From NCBI GenBank assembly GCA_002451065.1, contig DKBC01000127.1:307-12113 (forward strand): a stretch of DNA of 11,807 nucleotides. The letters run 5' to 3'. The notes under the pieces were generated by a model. The model saw only the letters and a program-made list of their open reading frames with translations. It was not told the origin of the DNA and did not search any database. Shown here piece by piece: positions 3,817 to 10,184 of this stretch (its first letter is position 1; the number at the start of each line of letters is the position of its first letter). The position numbers were made by a program, and so were the translations under genes. This DNA is from Betaproteobacteria bacterium UBA6910 (GTDB taxonomy: Bacteria > Pseudomonadota > Gammaproteobacteria > Burkholderiales > UBA6910).

Positions 3817-3837
3817 GCAAGTCCATGAAAGGAACAT

Positions 3838-3853: not shown

Positions 3854-5188
3854 ATGACCCTTCCCCTCTGCTTCGTCCTCATGCCCTTCGGCCGCAAGCC
3901 CGGCGCGGGGGGCGCCATGATCGATTTCGACGCCGTGTACTCGGGGCTCATCGCGCCCGCGGTCACGGCAGCGGGGATGGAGCCAATTCGCGCCGACCAG
4001 GAGCTGACCGGCGGCATCATCCACAAGCCCATGTTCGAGCGGCTGATCCTGTGCGAATTCGCGGTGGCGGACCTCACCACCGCCAACGCCAACGTGTTTT
4101 ATGAATTGGGGCTGCGCCACGCCGTGCGGCCCGCCTCCACCCAGCTCATCTTCGCCGAAGGCACCGGGCAGCTTCCGTTCGACGTGGCGCTACTGCGGGC
4201 GCTGCCCTACAAGCTCGGCGCCGACGGCAGGCCCTCCAATGCGGCGGCGGATTCGGCCGCCATCGCGGCGCGGCTCAAGGAAGCGCGGGACCTGCCCACC
4301 GACAGCCCGGTGTTCCAGCTGGTGGAAGGCTTTCCCGATGTCGCCCGGCTCAAGACCGACGTCTTCCGTGATCGGGTGAAGTACCGGGAGGAGGTCAAGA
4401 CAAAGCTGGCTGCGGCGCGGAAGCAGGGCGCCGAAGCGGTGCGGGCAGTGGAAGCCTCCCTCGGCAATGTCTCCGACCAGGAGGCCGGCGTGGTGATCGA
4501 CCTCTTTCTCTCCTTCCGGGCGGTGAAGGCGTGGAAGGACATGATCGCCCTGGTGCCCAAGATGTCGCCACCCCTCGCTCGCAGCGTCATGGTCCAGGAG
4601 CAGCTTGGCCTCGCCCTCAACCGCGACGGCCAGGGCGACGAAGCGGAGCGTGCGCTGCTTGCGGTGATCGAAAAGCAGGGGCCGAGCAGCGAGACCTACG
4701 GAATCCTCGGGCGGGTATACAAGGACCGCTGGGAGGCGGCGCTCAAGGCCGGCGACACTTTCCTTGCCGAGGGGCAGCTGGATAACGCCATCGACGCCTA
4801 CCTGAAAGGGTTCGAGGCCGACTGGCGGGACGCCTATCCCGGCATCAACGCGGTCACCCTGATGGAACTGAAGGAACCGCCCGACCCGCGGCGCGAGAAG
4901 CTGATCCCGGTGGTGGCCTACGCCGCCGAACGGCGCATCGCCGCCGGCAAGCCAGACTACTGGGACTACGCGACCCTGCTCGAGCTGGCGGTGCTCGGCA
5001 AGCAAAAGGCGGAAGCCGCCGCCGCCCTGGGCAAAGCCCTCGCCGCGGTGCGCGAGGTGTGGGAGCCGGAGACCACGGCGCGTAACCTCCGCCTGATACG
5101 AGAGGCGCGGGAGCGCCGTGGGGACGCGGTGCCGTGGGCGGGCGAGGTGGAGCAGGCGCTTTCGAAGCGGGCGGCGGCGACGGGCTGA
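3854..5188 (+). CDS. Deoxyribosyltransferase/TIR-like domain fused to TPR scaffold (DUF4071, MAP3K TRAFs-binding family)
   Basis: Cytosolic two-domain protein of 444 residues. Residues 5-120 form a Rossmannoid domain of the nucleoside 2-deoxyribosyltransferase-like group. Visible features are strand F-V-L-M-P-F-G (7-13), I-R-A-D (45-48), G-G-I-I-H-K-P-M-F (53-61) and the signature A-D-L-T-x-A-N-x-N-V-F-Y-E-L-G (72-86). Asp73, Asn78, Asn80 and Glu84 are the likely active-site residues, Glu84 being placed like the catalytic Glu of these N-glycoside-cleaving enzymes. Residues about 155-440 are helical repeats of the family shared with animal ASK kinases, with motifs E280-T...G-R-V-Y-K-x-R-W293 and D326-A-Y-P-G-I-N-A333. 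Related TPR scaffolds have been predicted to recognise NAD-derived signals in bacterial immunity. The next gene, 56 bp downstream, carries a homologous repeat region fused to a lipase. The role as signal generator or sensor is inferred. Confidence 0.82.
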   Translation: MTLPLCFVLMPFGRKPGAGGAMIDFDAVYSGLIAPAVTAAGMEPIRADQELTGGIIHKPMFERLILCEFAVADLTTANANVFYELGLRHAVRPASTQLIFAEGTGQLPFDVALLRALPYKLGADGRPSNAAADSAAIAARLKEARDLPTDSPVFQLVEGFPDVARLKTDVFRDRVKYREEVKTKLAAARKQGAEAVRAVEASLGNVSDQEAGVVIDLFLSFRAVKAWKDMIALVPKMSPPLARSVMVQEQLGLALNRDGQGDEAERALLAVIEKQGPSSETYGILGRVYKDRWEAALKAGDTFLAEGQLDNAIDAYLKGFEADWRDAYPGINAVTLMELKEPPDPRREKLIPVVAYAAERRIAAGKPDYWDYATLLELAVLGKQKAEAAAALGKALAAVREVWEPETTARNLRLIREARERRGDAVPWAGEVEQALSKRAAATG

Positions 5189-5234
5189 TCGGGGGAGCTG
5201 AGTCGGCCATAGCGGCACCCAATCGAAATATCAC

Positions 5235-5241
5235 GGAGGGG
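5235..5241 (+). promoter_or_regulatory. Strong ribosome binding site deciding the patatin start at 5245
   Basis: GGAGGGG lies just upstream of ATG 5245, with the GGAGG core 5 nt from the start. The same frame is open back to an ATG at 5134, but that ATG lies inside the preceding gene and lacks such a site. Its extra 37 residues read like out-of-frame Gly/Ala/Glu sequence. Confidence 0.75.
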
Positions 5242-5244
5242 ACC

Positions 5245-7956
5245 ATGGACGAGAACGCAAGGCGCGAGAACATCAACAAAGCCAGGGAGCTGGCGGACGC
5301 AATTCTAAAGGGTAGCGAACCCATTCCCGCAGACTTCAGGGCGCTAAAGGACTGCATCAGGTGGCTCAAGGCGGGCTTGGCATTCGGCCTGGGCCGCAAA
5401 CTGCTGGGGCGCTGCCACGGACGTTACGACCCGAAGCAGAACGTCTGGGTGGTCCAGCAGCTCGCGCTTTGTACCTACAAGGACGAGGACCAGCTACCCG
5501 ACACCCGTTTCACGCAGGCGCTCGCCCTTCTGGAGAGCGTGGGGCTGCGCAATCCCGACAAGGCGGACTTAAAGCAGGTGCCGCCAGAAACGCTGCCGGA
5601 GACTTTGGCCCTGGGGGGCGCCGTGTACAAGCGTATCTGGGAGCAGAACGGCCAGCTCGAAAATCTCCACGAGTCCCTGGCCCTTTACCGCGGCGCCTGG
5701 GACCGCAATCACGACATTGACGCCGGCTACGGAGGCGTCAATGCCGCCTTTGTGCTGGACATCCTGGCGTCGAGGCTGAGGGCCATCGCGCGGCGAAGCG
5801 GGACCAGCGACGAGCTTGCGAGGGAGCGCGCCGAGGAAGCGAAGGCCCTGAGATCGGAGATCGCGGCGCACCTGGAAGCGAAGCTCAAGACAGACCCCAC
5901 ACTGGCGAATCAGGACTGGTTCGCCGTCACCCTGGCCGAAGGGTATTACGGATTGGAGCGCTACGGCGATGCCGGGAAGTGGCTCGCGAGGGCACGCTCC
6001 CTTGACCGCTCGGAGTGGGAGCAGCAGACCACTTTCAAGCAACTGGTCTCCATCGCCCGCCATCAGGATATCAAGCCCCCGGCCGACGACGATCCGGCCA
6101 CCTGGCACGAGGCATGGCAGGCATTGCGCGAAATTCTGGGCGAGGACACGGGCCCGGCCCTCTCCTGCTACCGCGGCAAGGTCGGATTGGCCCTCTCAGG
6201 GGGCGGCTTCCGCGCTTCCCTGTTTCACATCGGCGTGCTGGCGCGGCTGGCGGAGATGGACGTGCTGCGCAGCGTCGAGGTGCTGTCCACGGTTTCCGGC
6301 GGCAGCATCGTGGGAGCCCACTACTACCTGGAAGTCCGCCACCTGCTGCAGACCAAGTCCGACCGGGAGATCGGGCGCGAGGACTACATCGAGATCGTCA
6401 GGCGCCTGCAGAAGGACTTCCTGGCCGCGGTCCAGGAGAACCTCCGCACCCGCGCCCTCAACAACCTGTTCCGCAACATCCTGATGGTCCTGGGGCGCTA
6501 CTCCCGCAGCCATCGCATGGGAGAGCTGTACGAGCGCTTCATCTATTCCAAGGTAAAGGACGGTCACTGGTCGGCGCTGCCCCGGCGCATGCGCGACCTC
6601 CTGATCCGGCCGGCAACGGGGGGCCAGGGGACCGACGGCAAGCCGATCGCCGATGAAGGCTTCAACCCGAAATTCAGCAACTGGCGGCGGAGGGCGCGGG
6701 TGCCCGTGCTGCTGCTGAACGCCACATCGCTCAACTCGGGCCACAGCTGGCATTTCACGGCCCGGTGGATGGGCGAGCCACCGGGGCTGGTGGGCGGGGA
6801 CGTGGACGTGAACGCGCGTTACCGCCGCCTCTGGTATTCCCAGGCCCCCACCGAGGACCTGCAGGACTACCCCTTGGGTTACGCGGTGGCGTCCTCGGCC
6901 TGCGTTCCTGGACTGTTCGAGCCGCTGGCCCTGAAGGGCCTCTATCCGGGCCGGGTGGTACAGCTGGTGGACGGAGGGGTGCATGACAACCAGGGCGTGG
7001 AAGGACTCCTCAACGAGGGCTGCACGCGGATACTGTGCAGCGACGCGTCGGGGCAGATGGAGGATCAGCCCAAACCCGCCGACAGCACCATCGGCGTGCC
7101 CCTCCGGTCCAACAGCGTCCTCATGGACCGCGTGCGCGAATCCGAGTATCAGGATCTCAGCGGGCGGGTGGCCAACGGCGCCCTGGAAGGGCTTTTCTTT
7201 ATCCATCTCAAGAAGGGCCTGCCCACCAAGCCCGTCGACTGGGTGGACTGCGACGATCCCAGCGTGGCGGACCCTCATCCATTCAGCACCACCCCTTATG
7301 GCGTGGACAGGGAGCTGCAGTCGCAGCTGGCCGCGATCCGCACCGATCTGGATTCCTTCAGCGAGGTGGAAAGCTATGGGCTGATGCTCTCCGGCTATTT
7401 GATGACCGAGCATGAGTTCAGGGAACTGGACAAGGAGCACCGACGTAACGGCGGCGCCGGCAGCTGGGGAGACTACTGGATCGACGCGCCGCGGGAGAGC
7501 TGGCCGTTCCTGGACCTGGAACCCATCGTGCGCAAGCCCAAGGACGACTCAGATCTGCGACGCCGGGATCTCGGTACCCAGATCGAGGCCGGCGCGTCCC
7601 TGTTCTTCAAGATCTGGAAGCTCTCGACCCCCCTGAAGGTTACGGCAATGGTGCTTGGCGCCGCCGGGCTGGTCGCGCTCGCGTGGTACCTGTCCCGCAA
7701 CTGGGACACTACCATCTGGAAGCCGCCGTCCTTTACTGCGGGCGGAATCGTTGTGCTGGTGGCGCTCATCCTGGGCGGGATCCTGTTCCCGCTCCTGAAG
7801 TGGCTCAATCCCCAGCGTGCCATGCAGGGCTACGTCTGGAAGACCGTCGTGGCCGTGGCGGGCTGGTTTTTCACCAACCTGCACCTCTGGATCTTTGACC
7901 CCATGTTTCTCAGGCGCGGCAAGCTGAAGCGGCTGCTCAGGCTGCCGGGAGATTGA
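5245..7956 (+). CDS. TPR scaffold-patatin-like phospholipase with C-terminal membrane segments
   Basis: Predicted membrane-anchored lipase of 903 residues. Residues 1 to about 300 are helical repeats homologous to the preceding protein: E119-T...G-A-V-Y-K-R-I-W132 and D159-A-G-Y-G-G-V-N-A167. Residues 313 to about 720 are a patatin domain: oxyanion loop S-G-G-G-F-R-A-S (318-325), nucleophile Ser351 in T-V-S-G-G-S, A-S-S-A-C-V-P-G-L-F-E-P, and catalytic Asp576 in V-D-G-G-V-H-D-N. The Ser-Asp dyad is intact, so hydrolysis of phospholipid acyl esters is expected. Hydrophobic segments at about 799-816, 833-851 and possibly 866-884 would fix the C-terminus in the inner membrane, next to its substrate, ahead of a basic tail (R-R-G-K-L-K-R). 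In a defence setting such a lipase would be an abortive effector held inactive by its TPR part; that is inference. Same transcript as the previous gene is likely. Confidence 0.88.
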   Translation: MDENARRENINKARELADAILKGSEPIPADFRALKDCIRWLKAGLAFGLGRKLLGRCHGRYDPKQNVWVVQQLALCTYKDEDQLPDTRFTQALALLESVGLRNPDKADLKQVPPETLPETLALGGAVYKRIWEQNGQLENLHESLALYRGAWDRNHDIDAGYGGVNAAFVLDILASRLRAIARRSGTSDELARERAEEAKALRSEIAAHLEAKLKTDPTLANQDWFAVTLAEGYYGLERYGDAGKWLARARSLDRSEWEQQTTFKQLVSIARHQDIKPPADDDPATWHEAWQALREILGEDTGPALSCYRGKVGLALSGGGFRASLFHIGVLARLAEMDVLRSVEVLSTVSGGSIVGAHYYLEVRHLLQTKSDREIGREDYIEIVRRLQKDFLAAVQENLRTRALNNLFRNILMVLGRYSRSHRMGELYERFIYSKVKDGHWSALPRRMRDLLIRPATGGQGTDGKPIADEGFNPKFSNWRRRARVPVLLLNATSLNSGHSWHFTARWMGEPPGLVGGDVDVNARYRRLWYSQAPTEDLQDYPLGYAVASSACVPGLFEPLALKGLYPGRVVQLVDGGVHDNQGVEGLLNEGCTRILCSDASGQMEDQPKPADSTIGVPLRSNSVLMDRVRESEYQDLSGRVANGALEGLFFIHLKKGLPTKPVDWVDCDDPSVADPHPFSTTPYGVDRELQSQLAAIRTDLDSFSEVESYGLMLSGYLMTEHEFRELDKEHRRNGGAGSWGDYWIDAPRESWPFLDLEPIVRKPKDDSDLRRRDLGTQIEAGASLFFKIWKLSTPLKVTAMVLGAAGLVALAWYLSRNWDTTIWKPPSFTAGGIVVLVALILGGILFPLLKWLNPQRAMQGYVWKTVVAVAGWFFTNLHLWIFDPMFLRRGKLKRLLRLPGD

Positions 7957-8031: not shown

Positions 8032-8985
8032 ATGCACGGAAAATTTCTGAAGCCCTTTGCGGGCCTGGTCGCCGGGTTGGTCGCGGTTCTGGCCGGATGC
8101 GCAACGTTGCCGGACGTTGCGCCCTACCGCGACGCAACGGTGCAGTTGCGGTCCGCCGTGCTGGCGAGCGGAAATGCCGTGGGAGCGGAACTAAGGAATG
8201 CAACGCTCGCGGTTGAGGAAAAAGATCGGGCGAACCTCGAGAAAAGCGCCAAGACGTTTTCCGAAAACTGGCAGGTGCGCGTGGAAAGCGCTGACGCCCT
8301 GGTAGTCTATGCCCAGGCCCTCGCCGAGATCACCAAGGCCGGGAAGGAAGGAGGCGACACCGCGCGCTCACTGGCAGCGGCGCTCGAGCAGCTTGCCGGA
8401 GGGGTGGGCATCGCCCTACCGCCGGCGGGGGCAGTGGCAACCCTCGCCGACACGGCCGCGTTCGTATACGCCCAAGTCGCCGCGGTAAGAGCGTCCCGTT
8501 CTCTGGAAGACGCGCTCGTTGCCGCCCAGCCAGCCGTCAACGAGATCGCCGCCAAGCTTGGCAAGGATCTTGATGCGTCTCTGACACTGATTGACGCGGC
8601 TTACGAACTACAGCGCCTAGCCTTGGCAGACAGGTACGATAAAGAAATCGGTTTTCTGAAGGCGCTTGAACGCGAGCGGCGCAAGCTTTATGCCCAAGGA
8701 CAACTTAGCCGGGAGGACGAGAAGCGCCTTAAGGAGATCGGCGAGCTCTTTGATTCGACCAAGAGCTGGCGCGAGCCCATGCAGGCCGCGTTTGCCCAGC
8801 TGGAGAAGCGCTACGAGGTGGAGCGCGAGGTTGTCGTAGCCACAAAGGCGGCGGTGGCCGAGTGGGCGGCCGCCCACCGCGGATTGGCGATCGCCGTCCG
8901 CGAAGGCAGGACAATCAGCGTCGAAGGGCTGATCCAGGCGACCCTGGAGGCCCGTGAACTTGTGAGGAGGCTGAGAGCGCTATGA
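8032..8985 (+). CDS. Helical lipoprotein of unknown function (317 aa)
   Basis: Residues 1-23 are a lipoprotein signal peptide: basic start (H-G-K-F-L-K), hydrophobic core, and lipobox L20-A-G-C23, so the mature protein should be lipidated at Cys23. Ala at +2, with no Asp, favours sorting to the outer membrane. The rest is almost entirely predicted helix: a first bundle at about 35-120, a hydrophobic Ala/Gly/Val-rich stretch at about 122-156, and charged long helices at about 195-300 that look like coiled coil (Glu, Arg and Lys at heptad-like spacing). No known domain or catalytic motif is recognised. It lies 75 bp after the patatin gene on the same strand and overlaps the next gene by ATGA, so it probably belongs to the same unit. 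An envelope sensor, or a protector against the lipase, would fit, but neither is shown. Confidence 0.75.
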   Translation: MHGKFLKPFAGLVAGLVAVLAGCATLPDVAPYRDATVQLRSAVLASGNAVGAELRNATLAVEEKDRANLEKSAKTFSENWQVRVESADALVVYAQALAEITKAGKEGGDTARSLAAALEQLAGGVGIALPPAGAVATLADTAAFVYAQVAAVRASRSLEDALVAAQPAVNEIAAKLGKDLDASLTLIDAAYELQRLALADRYDKEIGFLKALERERRKLYAQGQLSREDEKRLKEIGELFDSTKSWREPMQAAFAQLEKRYEVEREVVVATKAAVAEWAAAHRGLAIAVREGRTISVEGLIQATLEARELVRRLRAL

Positions 8986-9488
8986 GCGACGAATGGGAAG
9001 ACATCGAGGGACATGAGCAGTGGCAGGCAAAACTCGAGGAGCTGCTGGGGGAAGCCGAAAGCGCGGCCCGCGAGGACGGCGATGCAAACCGGCTTGCCGT
9101 AAGTCGCCGCCTCACCGACTTCATCATGAACTCCTGGCCCAACGACAAGGCGATCAAGGCCATGGACGAAATCGCCAAGCGCACCGCCCAGGATCTGCTG
9201 TTGCAGACTATCCACGAGCGGGTGCGGGAAATCGCCGGCAGGACCGCGGAGCTGCGGCAGTTGGGGAAGGAGTTCCAGGACCTCGCGGACGCGGCCAGCA
9301 CGAGCGCATCGGCCATTCGCCTGGAGAAGGCCCACCGCGTGGCGAAAACCCTCACCGACAGCGTTCATTTGCTGAAGGATCTCCGGGCTTCGCTGGACTC
9401 GGGGAGCGATGCCAGTCTGATCCGAAACGTGGACAAGGCGATGGACACCATCCAGAAGCTGCGCGCCATGGTCGAGCGGGAAAGCTGA
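8982..9488 (+). CDS. Small all-helical cytosolic protein (168 aa)
   Basis: The start ATG at 8982 overlaps the stop of the lipoprotein gene (ATGA), and GAGGAGG at 8964-8970 is 11 nt upstream: classic translational coupling. The product has no signal peptide or membrane segment. It starts with an acidic stretch (S-D-E-W-E-D-I-E-G) and continues as charged amphipathic helices to the end, with heptad-like patterns near residues 60-110 and 120-165. No domain is recognised. Coupling to a lipoprotein gene suggests a stoichiometric partner, yet it lacks any export signal, so a direct complex would have to span compartments or the two simply act in the same pathway. A TPR-binding adaptor is one possibility. 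Confidence 0.7.
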   Translation: MSDEWEDIEGHEQWQAKLEELLGEAESAAREDGDANRLAVSRRLTDFIMNSWPNDKAIKAMDEIAKRTAQDLLLQTIHERVREIAGRTAELRQLGKEFQDLADAASTSASAIRLEKAHRVAKTLTDSVHLLKDLRASLDSGSDASLIRNVDKAMDTIQKLRAMVERES

Positions 9489-9543: not shown

Positions 9544-10116
9544 TCAGGCGCTGGCCGTGCCGCTGGTCTGCAGCCCGGCCACGTACACGTATTTTCCGCT
9601 GCGCGGGTCGAGGACGTAGCTGGTCAGCTTGCCCCGGTTCTCGCCCATGCCCGGCGGAACGATCGAGACATGCACCCACCCGGAATTGGGGCCCTTGCGC
9701 GGGTCATAGCACTCGCAGATGATCTGGTCGAATTCCAGGTTCTTCGCCACCCAATCCGCCAGTTCCAGGGTGGGCATGCCCGGGATTTCGATATCGCAGG
9801 CCTGGCCCAGGGTGTGCTGGCTGGCGGAGGTCCAGTTGCTGCGCTTCTTCTTCAGCGCCCGCTCCAGTTCCTGGCAGCGAAACACGCTGTTGGGCGTGAA
9901 GCGGCCGAACTTGTCGCGAATGGGCTGCAGCACGTTGCGGCAGAGGTGGACCGCCGCCCGCACTTCCGCGACCCGGGTGAACCGGTTGTCGATGAGGAGG
10001 CGCTCCGCGGTCTCGGATGCCGTGAGCTCATAGAACTTGAAGTTCTTGGATACCTGGTCGCTCGGAGCCGCCCGCAGCGGAAACTTGTCCCAGGAAACTC
10101 CGGTCAGGTCAGCCAT
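9544..10116 (-). CDS. Peptidase M15A family D,D-peptidase (zinc)
   Basis: Protein of 190 residues matching the peptidase M15A C-terminal type (zinc D-Ala-D-Ala carboxy/endopeptidases that cut peptidoglycan cross-links or stem peptides, common in phage lysins and in some chromosomal genes). Seen in order: N-F-K-F-Y-E-L-T-A-S-E-T-A (25-37), the helix V-L-Q-P-I-R-D-K-F-G (62-71), zinc motif S99-Q-H101-T-L-G-Q-A-C-D108, F-D-Q-I-I-x-E (129-135) and W-V-H149-V-S. His101, Asp108 and His149 form the expected zinc triad. There is no signal peptide, so it acts after lysis, via a holin-like route, or on soluble muropeptides. The start is ATG 10116 with AGGAGG 7 nt upstream, rather than a further upstream start at 10158 that lacks one. 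It is convergent with the TPR-patatin block and lies 68 bp after pepN on the same strand. Confidence 0.85.
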   Translation of the reverse strand: MADLTGVSWDKFPLRAAPSDQVSKNFKFYELTASETAERLLIDNRFTRVAEVRAAVHLCRNVLQPIRDKFGRFTPNSVFRCQELERALKKKRSNWTSASQHTLGQACDIEIPGMPTLELADWVAKNLEFDQIICECYDPRKGPNSGWVHVSIVPPGMGENRGKLTSYVLDPRSGKYVYVAGLQTSGTASA

Positions 10117-10123
10117 TGCCTCT

Positions 10124-10129
10124 CCTCCT
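10124..10129 (-). promoter_or_regulatory. Ribosome binding site of the M15A peptidase gene
   Basis: On the minus strand AGGAGG lies 7 nt before ATG 10116 within a purine-rich GAGAGGAGGAGAGG run. It fixes this start over the in-frame start 42 nt upstream. Confidence 0.7.
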
Positions 10130-10184
10130 CTCGAAGCCGCCCCAGGGCAGGACGGCACTGCCGCGATTGAATCCCGGCACCGGC

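Follow-up and report, generated by a model that had tools for sequence, protein, structure and literature searches.

What two adjacent genes on this DNA encode, and whether their products act together, is the question raised by the locus described here. The first gene, P1, carries an N-terminal domain resembling nucleotide-cleaving enzymes, and the second, P2, a patatin-type lipase domain; each also encodes a TPR-S region.

Gene organization

The window (the whole stretch of 11,807 nucleotides analysed) comprises bases 307-12113 of the 12113-base contig C309, nearly the whole contig, from a 3.28 Mb genome in 365 contigs that is 85.5% complete. Both ORFs of the adjacent same-strand pair proposed in a first-pass annotation were confirmed on the + strand, separated by 56 bases (Table 1), and the residues it named are correct in its numbering: Glu84 (FYELG) of P1, and Ser351 (STVSGGS) and Asp576 (LVDGG) of P2. 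An in-frame ATG at 3836 is also a possible start for P1 (ORF 3836/3854-5188). A clear Shine-Dalgarno-like GGAGG lies just 5' of the P2 ATG at 5245, and an upstream GTG at 5134 is possible.

Table 1. Features of the P1/P2 locus, in window coordinates.
Feature	Position	Strand	Basis or remark
P1, 444 aa: NDT/DNPH1-like (DRHyd-type) N-domain and TPR-S region	3854..5188	+	MAP3K_TRAF_bd; DUF4071 annotation in relatives
P1 N-domain, residues 1-130, nucleotide N-glycosidase-like by sequence	3854..4243	+	DNPH1/Rcl profile match
Glu84 codon, candidate catalytic residue (FYELG)	4103..4105	+	Conservation; aligned with Glu of DNPH1 YELG
P1 TPR region, residues 179-444	4388..5185	+	
P2, 903 aa: TPR-S, patatin, C-terminal hydrophobic helices	5245..7956	+	
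P2 TPR region, residues 1-305	5245..6159	+	
P2 patatin domain, residues 313-735	6181..7449	+	Nucleophile Ser351 at 6295-6297, Asp576 at 6970-6972
P2 C-terminal hydrophobic helices, residues 795-891	7627..7917	+	Structure model and hydropathy
g3, lipoprotein-like, downstream of P2; system membership unproven	8032..8985	+	No Pfam family
g4, small protein overlapping g3 stop; system membership unproven	8982..9488	+	Nothing above curated Pfam cut-off

The pair is flanked on the left by window ORFs for an Ap4A phosphorylase, an Lnb_N protein, a bacterial globin and ArsC, and on the right by g3, g4, a convergent M15-type peptidase and the end of pepN. Neither a TIR nor any other infection sensor was recognised in the window, and the genes on either side of the pair (ArsC, globin, Ap4A phosphorylase, PepN) are of ordinary kinds. 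Searches with g3 returned 52 proteins at E<=0.001. Relatives of g3, g4 and g5 were absent at E<=0.01 from the other loci scanned, so a fixed place for g3 and g4 in the system is unsupported. The peptidase (9544-10158, -) has a PHROG endolysin match (3.1e-27) and may be left over from a phage or act on the cell wall. Promoter and terminator scans of the window gave chance-level results, its repeat search returned nothing attributable to the pair, and its tRNA search returned none.

P1 carries an NDT/DNPH1-type domain

P1 matched the Pfam families MAP3K_TRAF_bd (8.1e-46, 157.2 bits; curated cut-off 24.1) and TPR-S (1.5e-26, 93.4 bits; curated cut-off 27.6). The N-domain had been described as NDT/TIR-like, and the NDT part of this description held: a profile of 19 N-domain sequences matched DNPH1/Rcl with a best E of 9.5e-4, Glu84 aligning with the Glu of YELG. 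The TIR part proved weaker, as the same profile reached a solved TIR structure only at E 0.54 and the PADLOC TIR effector model matched the N-domain weakly (2.1e-6). The single window N-domain sequence matched nothing in Pfam, DUF4062 included, and a search with PF20309 (DRHyd-ASK) gave zero matches in the genome of the window and in every control genome, and is hence uninformative. Glu84 is invariant in all 16 P1 sequences aligned, and a Glu at this position is nearly invariant over 19 more diverse N-domains, L037 having Asn.

In the structure search with full-length P1, TPR matches fill the list and no NDT/TIR structure appears among the matches listed; P1 was folded only at full length, and this absence is no evidence against that fold. 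The N-domain model has partly low pLDDT, and the catalytic loops of the P1 and P2 models both have low pLDDT. No Pfam kinase domain matched P1 or P2. We conclude that P1 joins a domain of NDT/DNPH1 type to an ASK1-like TPR-S.

P2 is a TPR-S patatin

P2 matched TPR-S (5.8e-13, 49.8 bits; cut-off 27.6) and Patatin (3.3e-14) in Pfam. The patatin had been called intact, in agreement with the invariance of Ser351 and Asp576 in 20/20 aligned P2 sequences. The SGGGFR (oxyanion GGG), VSGG (Ser) and DGG motifs are present in the window, L004, L005, L012-L014, L019 and L052-L054. PADLOC 2.0.0 holds no model matching P2. A Foldseek search with full-length P2 returned nothing at E<=0.001; the structural matches of P2 to ASK1 and patatin come from a second search, VIA-align.

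The structure model of P2 ends in three helices (795-818, 832-851 and 863-891), of which a 19-residue hydropathy scan backed the first weakly, the second strongly and the third not at all, with windows above 1.6 starting at 795-799 and 827-838. The membrane anchor proposed in the first-pass annotation thus has its hydrophobic segments in the P2 of the window, but it does not extend to the family: such C-terminal windows are absent from four of eight paired P2s (L013, L014, L019, L053), and membrane anchoring is therefore not family-wide. In P2, a patatin that retains its catalytic residues follows a TPR-S related to that of P1.

The TPR-S regions are related to each other and to ASK1

The TPR regions of P1 and P2 matched one another by profile (E 5.3e-6, probability 86%), and human ASK1 was the top fold match for both, its central regulatory region having a TPR fold like that found in P1 and P2. 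The P1 profile also matched the sequence of human ASK1 (MAP3K5) at E 1.8e-11 over profile positions 61-295, which include parts of both P1 domains; the FYELG of P1 is FYHLG in human ASK1, with His in place of Glu84. Both the homology of the two TPR regions and their relation to ASK, as originally proposed, were borne out. TPR-S is widespread, as five of the 14 well-known control genomes contain matches. A link to ASK was recognised before, Pfam already having families named TPR-S and DRHyd-ASK. Burroughs and Aravind reportedly proposed in 2020 that signals derived from NAD are sensed by TPR-S, and that TPR-S was taken up into animal ASK.

The pair is accessory and co-occurs across genomes

Genome searches scored the first few candidates per genome, and all counts from them are accordingly lower bounds. 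Across a phylum sample of 398 genomes, P1 was found in at least seven (E<=1e-40) and a P2-like patatin in at least five (E<=1e-50), four of these with TPR-S. Four genomes held both P1 and a TPR-S patatin, three P1 only and none a TPR-S patatin only (Fisher 3.4e-8; 1.9e-6 without the genome of the window). A sample of 245 genomes centred on the Nitrospiraceae MAG G445 contained TPR-S patatins in at least five genomes (of six with a P2-like patatin) and full-length P1 in at least ten, with both in three, a TPR-S patatin only in two and full-length P1 only in seven (Fisher 4.7e-4; 7.0e-3 without the seed genome). P1 matches occurred in 15 genomes of this sample, including four N-domain-only genomes that were left unopened; G508 had two partial P1 matches, and its stretch was taken only around the C7 match. 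The Fisher tests count the G508 fragments and the four N-domain-only genomes as lacking P1. The co-occurrence predicted at the outset was thus recovered in both samples. An order sample of 300 genomes yielded P1 in at least two and a P2-like patatin in at least four, namely that of the window and three without TPR-S, none of which is accompanied by P1.

P2 was found in none of three same-family genomes and is patchy within two genera (2/8 and 1/11 genomes). This distribution, patchy in the larger genome samples too, rejects a housekeeping role and agrees with the original reading. Plasmid records contain relatives of P2 in two cases and of P1 in 21, of which six were examined in detail; two of them, L022 and L023, have nearly the same gene content. 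The patchy distribution and the relatives residing on some plasmids are consistent with an accessory, horizontally moving module. A viral origin of the pair is unsupported: tblastn found no P2 match in phage records, and a scan of viral contigs with two short peptide patterns gave no confirmed relative. P1 has one partial relative (31%) in a viral contig and its N-domain matches three PHROGs, none with an assigned function, indicating that phages carry relatives of the P1 N-domain.

The neighborhood survey of DUF4071 genes and patatins that the first-pass annotation had suggested was done with genes called by a simple ORF script and with P1 and P2 identified by profiles built from their alignments. 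P1 occurs in the stretch examined around 8 of 11 TPR-S patatins (the window, L004, L012, L013, L014, L019, L052 and L053; not L005, L051 or L054) versus 0 of 6 patatins lacking TPR-S (Fisher 0.009). Excluded from these six is L016, a TPR-S-less patatin locus of G412 that is also without a P1 match. The neighborhood of L015 is short, its contig being 4.1 kb; omitting it gives 8/11 versus 0/5 (p 0.026). P1 adjoins P2 in five of the eight paired loci (the window, L012, L013, L014 and L053), and in the others the distance is about 3 kb (L052), 8 kb (L004) or 9 kb (L019). The order is P1 then P2 in the window, L004, L012 and L053, and P2 then P1 in L013, L014, L019 and L052. That the two genes stay close while their order varies argues for a functional link and not for mere common descent of a single segment. 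Across the eight pairs the identity matrix of P1 correlates with that of P2 (r 0.69, Mantel p 0.0014), which shared organism history could explain. The unpaired TPR-S patatin copy of L051 is broken by a stop, compatible with loss of use. The P1/P2 pair is real and accessory, and its two genes share genomes and loci more often than expected by chance.

P1 is a hub with several partners

The locus had been described as a two-gene P1-patatin system. The pairing stands and the description is too narrow, as P1 has two further kinds of partner, a TPR-S alpha/beta-hydrolase and SLATT proteins, and is often located in clusters of TIR genes. P1 is a hub that is not tied to patatin. At L035, L036 and L038, from three genomes of one class, P1 directly adjoins an alpha/beta-hydrolase with its own TPR-S (1.3e-11 to 2.7e-14) and an intact HSMGG serine motif; no PADLOC 2.0.0 model matched those of L035 and L036. 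On Rhizobium and Agrobacterium plasmids (L022, L023), P1 adjoins SLATT (L022, by Pfam) or an annotated DUF4231 gene (L023). TPR-S has the appearance of a portable tag by which effectors are coupled to P1.

A TIR gene is present in the stretch examined of 15 of 27 P1 loci (L004, L013, L019, L021-L025, L035, L038, L052, L083 and L085-L087), a total that includes the diverged paralogue L018 and the partial L091, and in none of the six TPR-less patatin loci. As a yardstick, the genome of the window has seven TIR_2 matches in 3.28 Mb, all on other contigs. TIR genes were called at E<=1e-3 with a home-made profile, iterated from annotated and visible TIR genes. Pfam confirms TIR above its cut-off in L021, L024, L035 and L052 and weakly, below cut-off, in L013 and for one L004 gene; the records of L019 and L022-L025 carry TIR annotations. 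The calls in L038, L083, L086 and L087 rest on the home-made profile, and the 25 Pfam matches listed for L085 are all repeats. The remaining 12 of the 27 P1 loci are without TIR in the stretch examined, the window being among the pairs of this kind, and seven show no patatin, TPR-S alpha/beta-hydrolase, SLATT or TIR (L018, L037, L084 and L088-L091), the search for SLATT having covered annotations and single Pfam scans only. Other neighbors of P1 include nSTAND1-FGE proteins, WD40 repeats fused to a TIR-like part, a caspase, DUF4062, AAA and TPR proteins, and are typical of conflict systems.

Several of these loci have further distinctive content. L004:603-12445, from a Nitrospiraceae MAG, contains P1, P2, three TIR-like genes, an AAA NTPase and a TPR protein, together with a lipoprotein-like gene and a small gene located between P1 and P2, all on one strand; no Pfam family ties the last two genes to g3/g4. 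L035:12532-15770 encodes a TIR protein with a TGT-like part, an Ogg-type glycosylase, QueC and a ThsB-like TIR (Pfam and PADLOC), and similar cassettes, by annotation or appearance, lie beside P1 relatives in L022, L023, L038 and L083. Type IV CBASS carries TGT, QueC and Ogg as ancillary genes; the cassettes beside P1 relatives are accompanied by TIRs, and no CD-NTase was noticed there. A diverged second P1-like gene in the window's own genome (L018:9029-10402, E 1.6e-65) adjoins an ORF resembling pyruvate kinase by eye, with no patatin or TIR in the stretch. Small P1-like proteins lie beside a ThsB-like TIR on a 9.8 kb Pseudomonas plasmid (L024:2896-4542; 28% identical over 438 columns) and beside a TIR on a Vibrio plasmid (L025:8977-11221; 46% over 122), and their TPR-S motif is closer to that of P2 than to that of P1.

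Proposed mechanism and alternatives

We consider an immune-type role for the pair likely, and when triggered it probably damages the cell's own membrane. By the specific route we propose, to which we give an even chance, stress or infection would act on P1, which, by means of its Glu84 N-glycosidase-like domain (at other loci perhaps together with a TIR), would make or handle an NAD- or nucleotide-derived signal. The TPR-S regions of P1 and P2 would bind that signal or each other, and the patatin of P2, once released, would hydrolyze the cell's own phospholipids, stopping growth before the invader spreads. Where TIR genes are present at a locus, the TIR and not P1 may be the source of the signal. 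Every refutation test of the first-pass annotation that was run, on homology, co-occurrence and housekeeping-like conservation, came out in its favor; its interpretation as a whole, in which P1 would make or sense a signal on infection and unleash the lipase, is partly supported.

P1 could instead be a scaffold or pseudo-enzyme whose NDT-like domain binds nucleotides without cleaving them, as ASK1 presumably does, lacking the Glu, while TPR-TPR contact keeps P2 inactive. The relation of P1 to ASK1 and the TPR-S common to P1 and P2 fit such an arrangement, as does the ASK1 structure, where packing contacts join the N-terminal domain of one protomer to the TPR of the other (PMC10972558). Against this alternative, which we consider unlikely, stands the conservation of Glu84 (16/16, and nearly so in the 19 diverse domains), a residue for which a pure scaffold has no need. 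We give a similarly low probability to activation of P2 by a messenger from TIR proteins encoded elsewhere in the genome, with P1 as a second receptor or signal eraser. In its favor are the TIR genes at 15 of 27 P1 loci, the ThsB-like TIRs of L024 and L035, and the seven TIR_2 matches on other contigs of the window's genome; yet the stretches around those seven hold neither P1 nor P2, and partners occur without TIR in the stretch in the window, L012, L014 and L053 (P1 with P2) and in L036 (P1 with the TPR-S alpha/beta-hydrolase).

A role in lipid remodeling, stress response or virulence seems more improbable still. Relatives on an Aliarcobacter plasmid are tabled as virulence genes, the patatin under invasion/lipase and TIR under immunoavoidance, with the DUF4071 gene given no role there (PMC6690266). 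Against such a role stand the sporadic distribution, the swapped partner effectors and the conflict-system neighbors (caspase, nSTAND, DUF4062, ThsB-like TIR).

Returning to the preferred reading of a signal-driven lipase, we tentatively extend it, at rather less than even odds, to P1/P2 as a minimal bacterial forerunner of the ASK1 signalosome. P1 would be an active nucleotide-cleaving enzyme, and the thioredoxin-binding domain of ASK1 would descend from it in inactive form. TPR-S would link P1 to a set of exchangeable effectors that attack membranes (patatin, alpha/beta-hydrolase, SLATT) and, as a portable plug, would choose which of them is switched on. If true, bacteria would offer a two-gene system for direct tests of the proposed TPR-S ligand, and thus of the ancestral input to ASK1-type signaling, and lipases with a common sensor tag would join the membrane-damaging immune effectors.

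Comparison with known systems

Among the titles and abstract starts listed for the open literature, none presents the pairing of a TPR-S patatin with P1 as a system. The TPR-S/DUF4071 (MAP3K_TRAF_bd) systems reportedly predicted by Burroughs and Aravind (2020) share with this locus the TPR-S of both P1 and P2, the P1 relatives beside TIR genes and the ASK relation; they differ in that this locus unites P1 and a TPR-S hydrolase as two genes with no TIR close by.

The comparison with CBASS made at the outset holds as analogy only: no CD-NTase is among the ten window ORFs scanned, and P2, unlike the CBASS phospholipase CapV, has a TPR-S before its patatin. With Thoeris (ThsB TIR and ThsA) the likeness is that NAD-type signaling is plausible and that ThsB-like TIRs adjoin some P1 relatives; neither ThsA nor TIR is among the same ten ORFs. 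A 2026 preprint describes DUF4062 proteins as TIR-like NADases in phage defence, named Swarozyc (PMC13174449); like P1 these have a TIR/NDT-related domain with a conserved Glu, and DUF4062 proteins are encoded near P1 in L085 and L087.

The N-domain of P1 resembles the DNPH1/Rcl nucleotide N-hydrolases of the NDT superfamily in profile and in the aligned YELG Glu, and differs from them in its fusion to TPR-S. Human ASK1 has the domain order of P1, with an N-terminal thioredoxin-binding domain followed by a central regulatory region, but it differs in its kinase, which neither P1 nor P2 matches, and in carrying FYHLG where P1 has FYELG.
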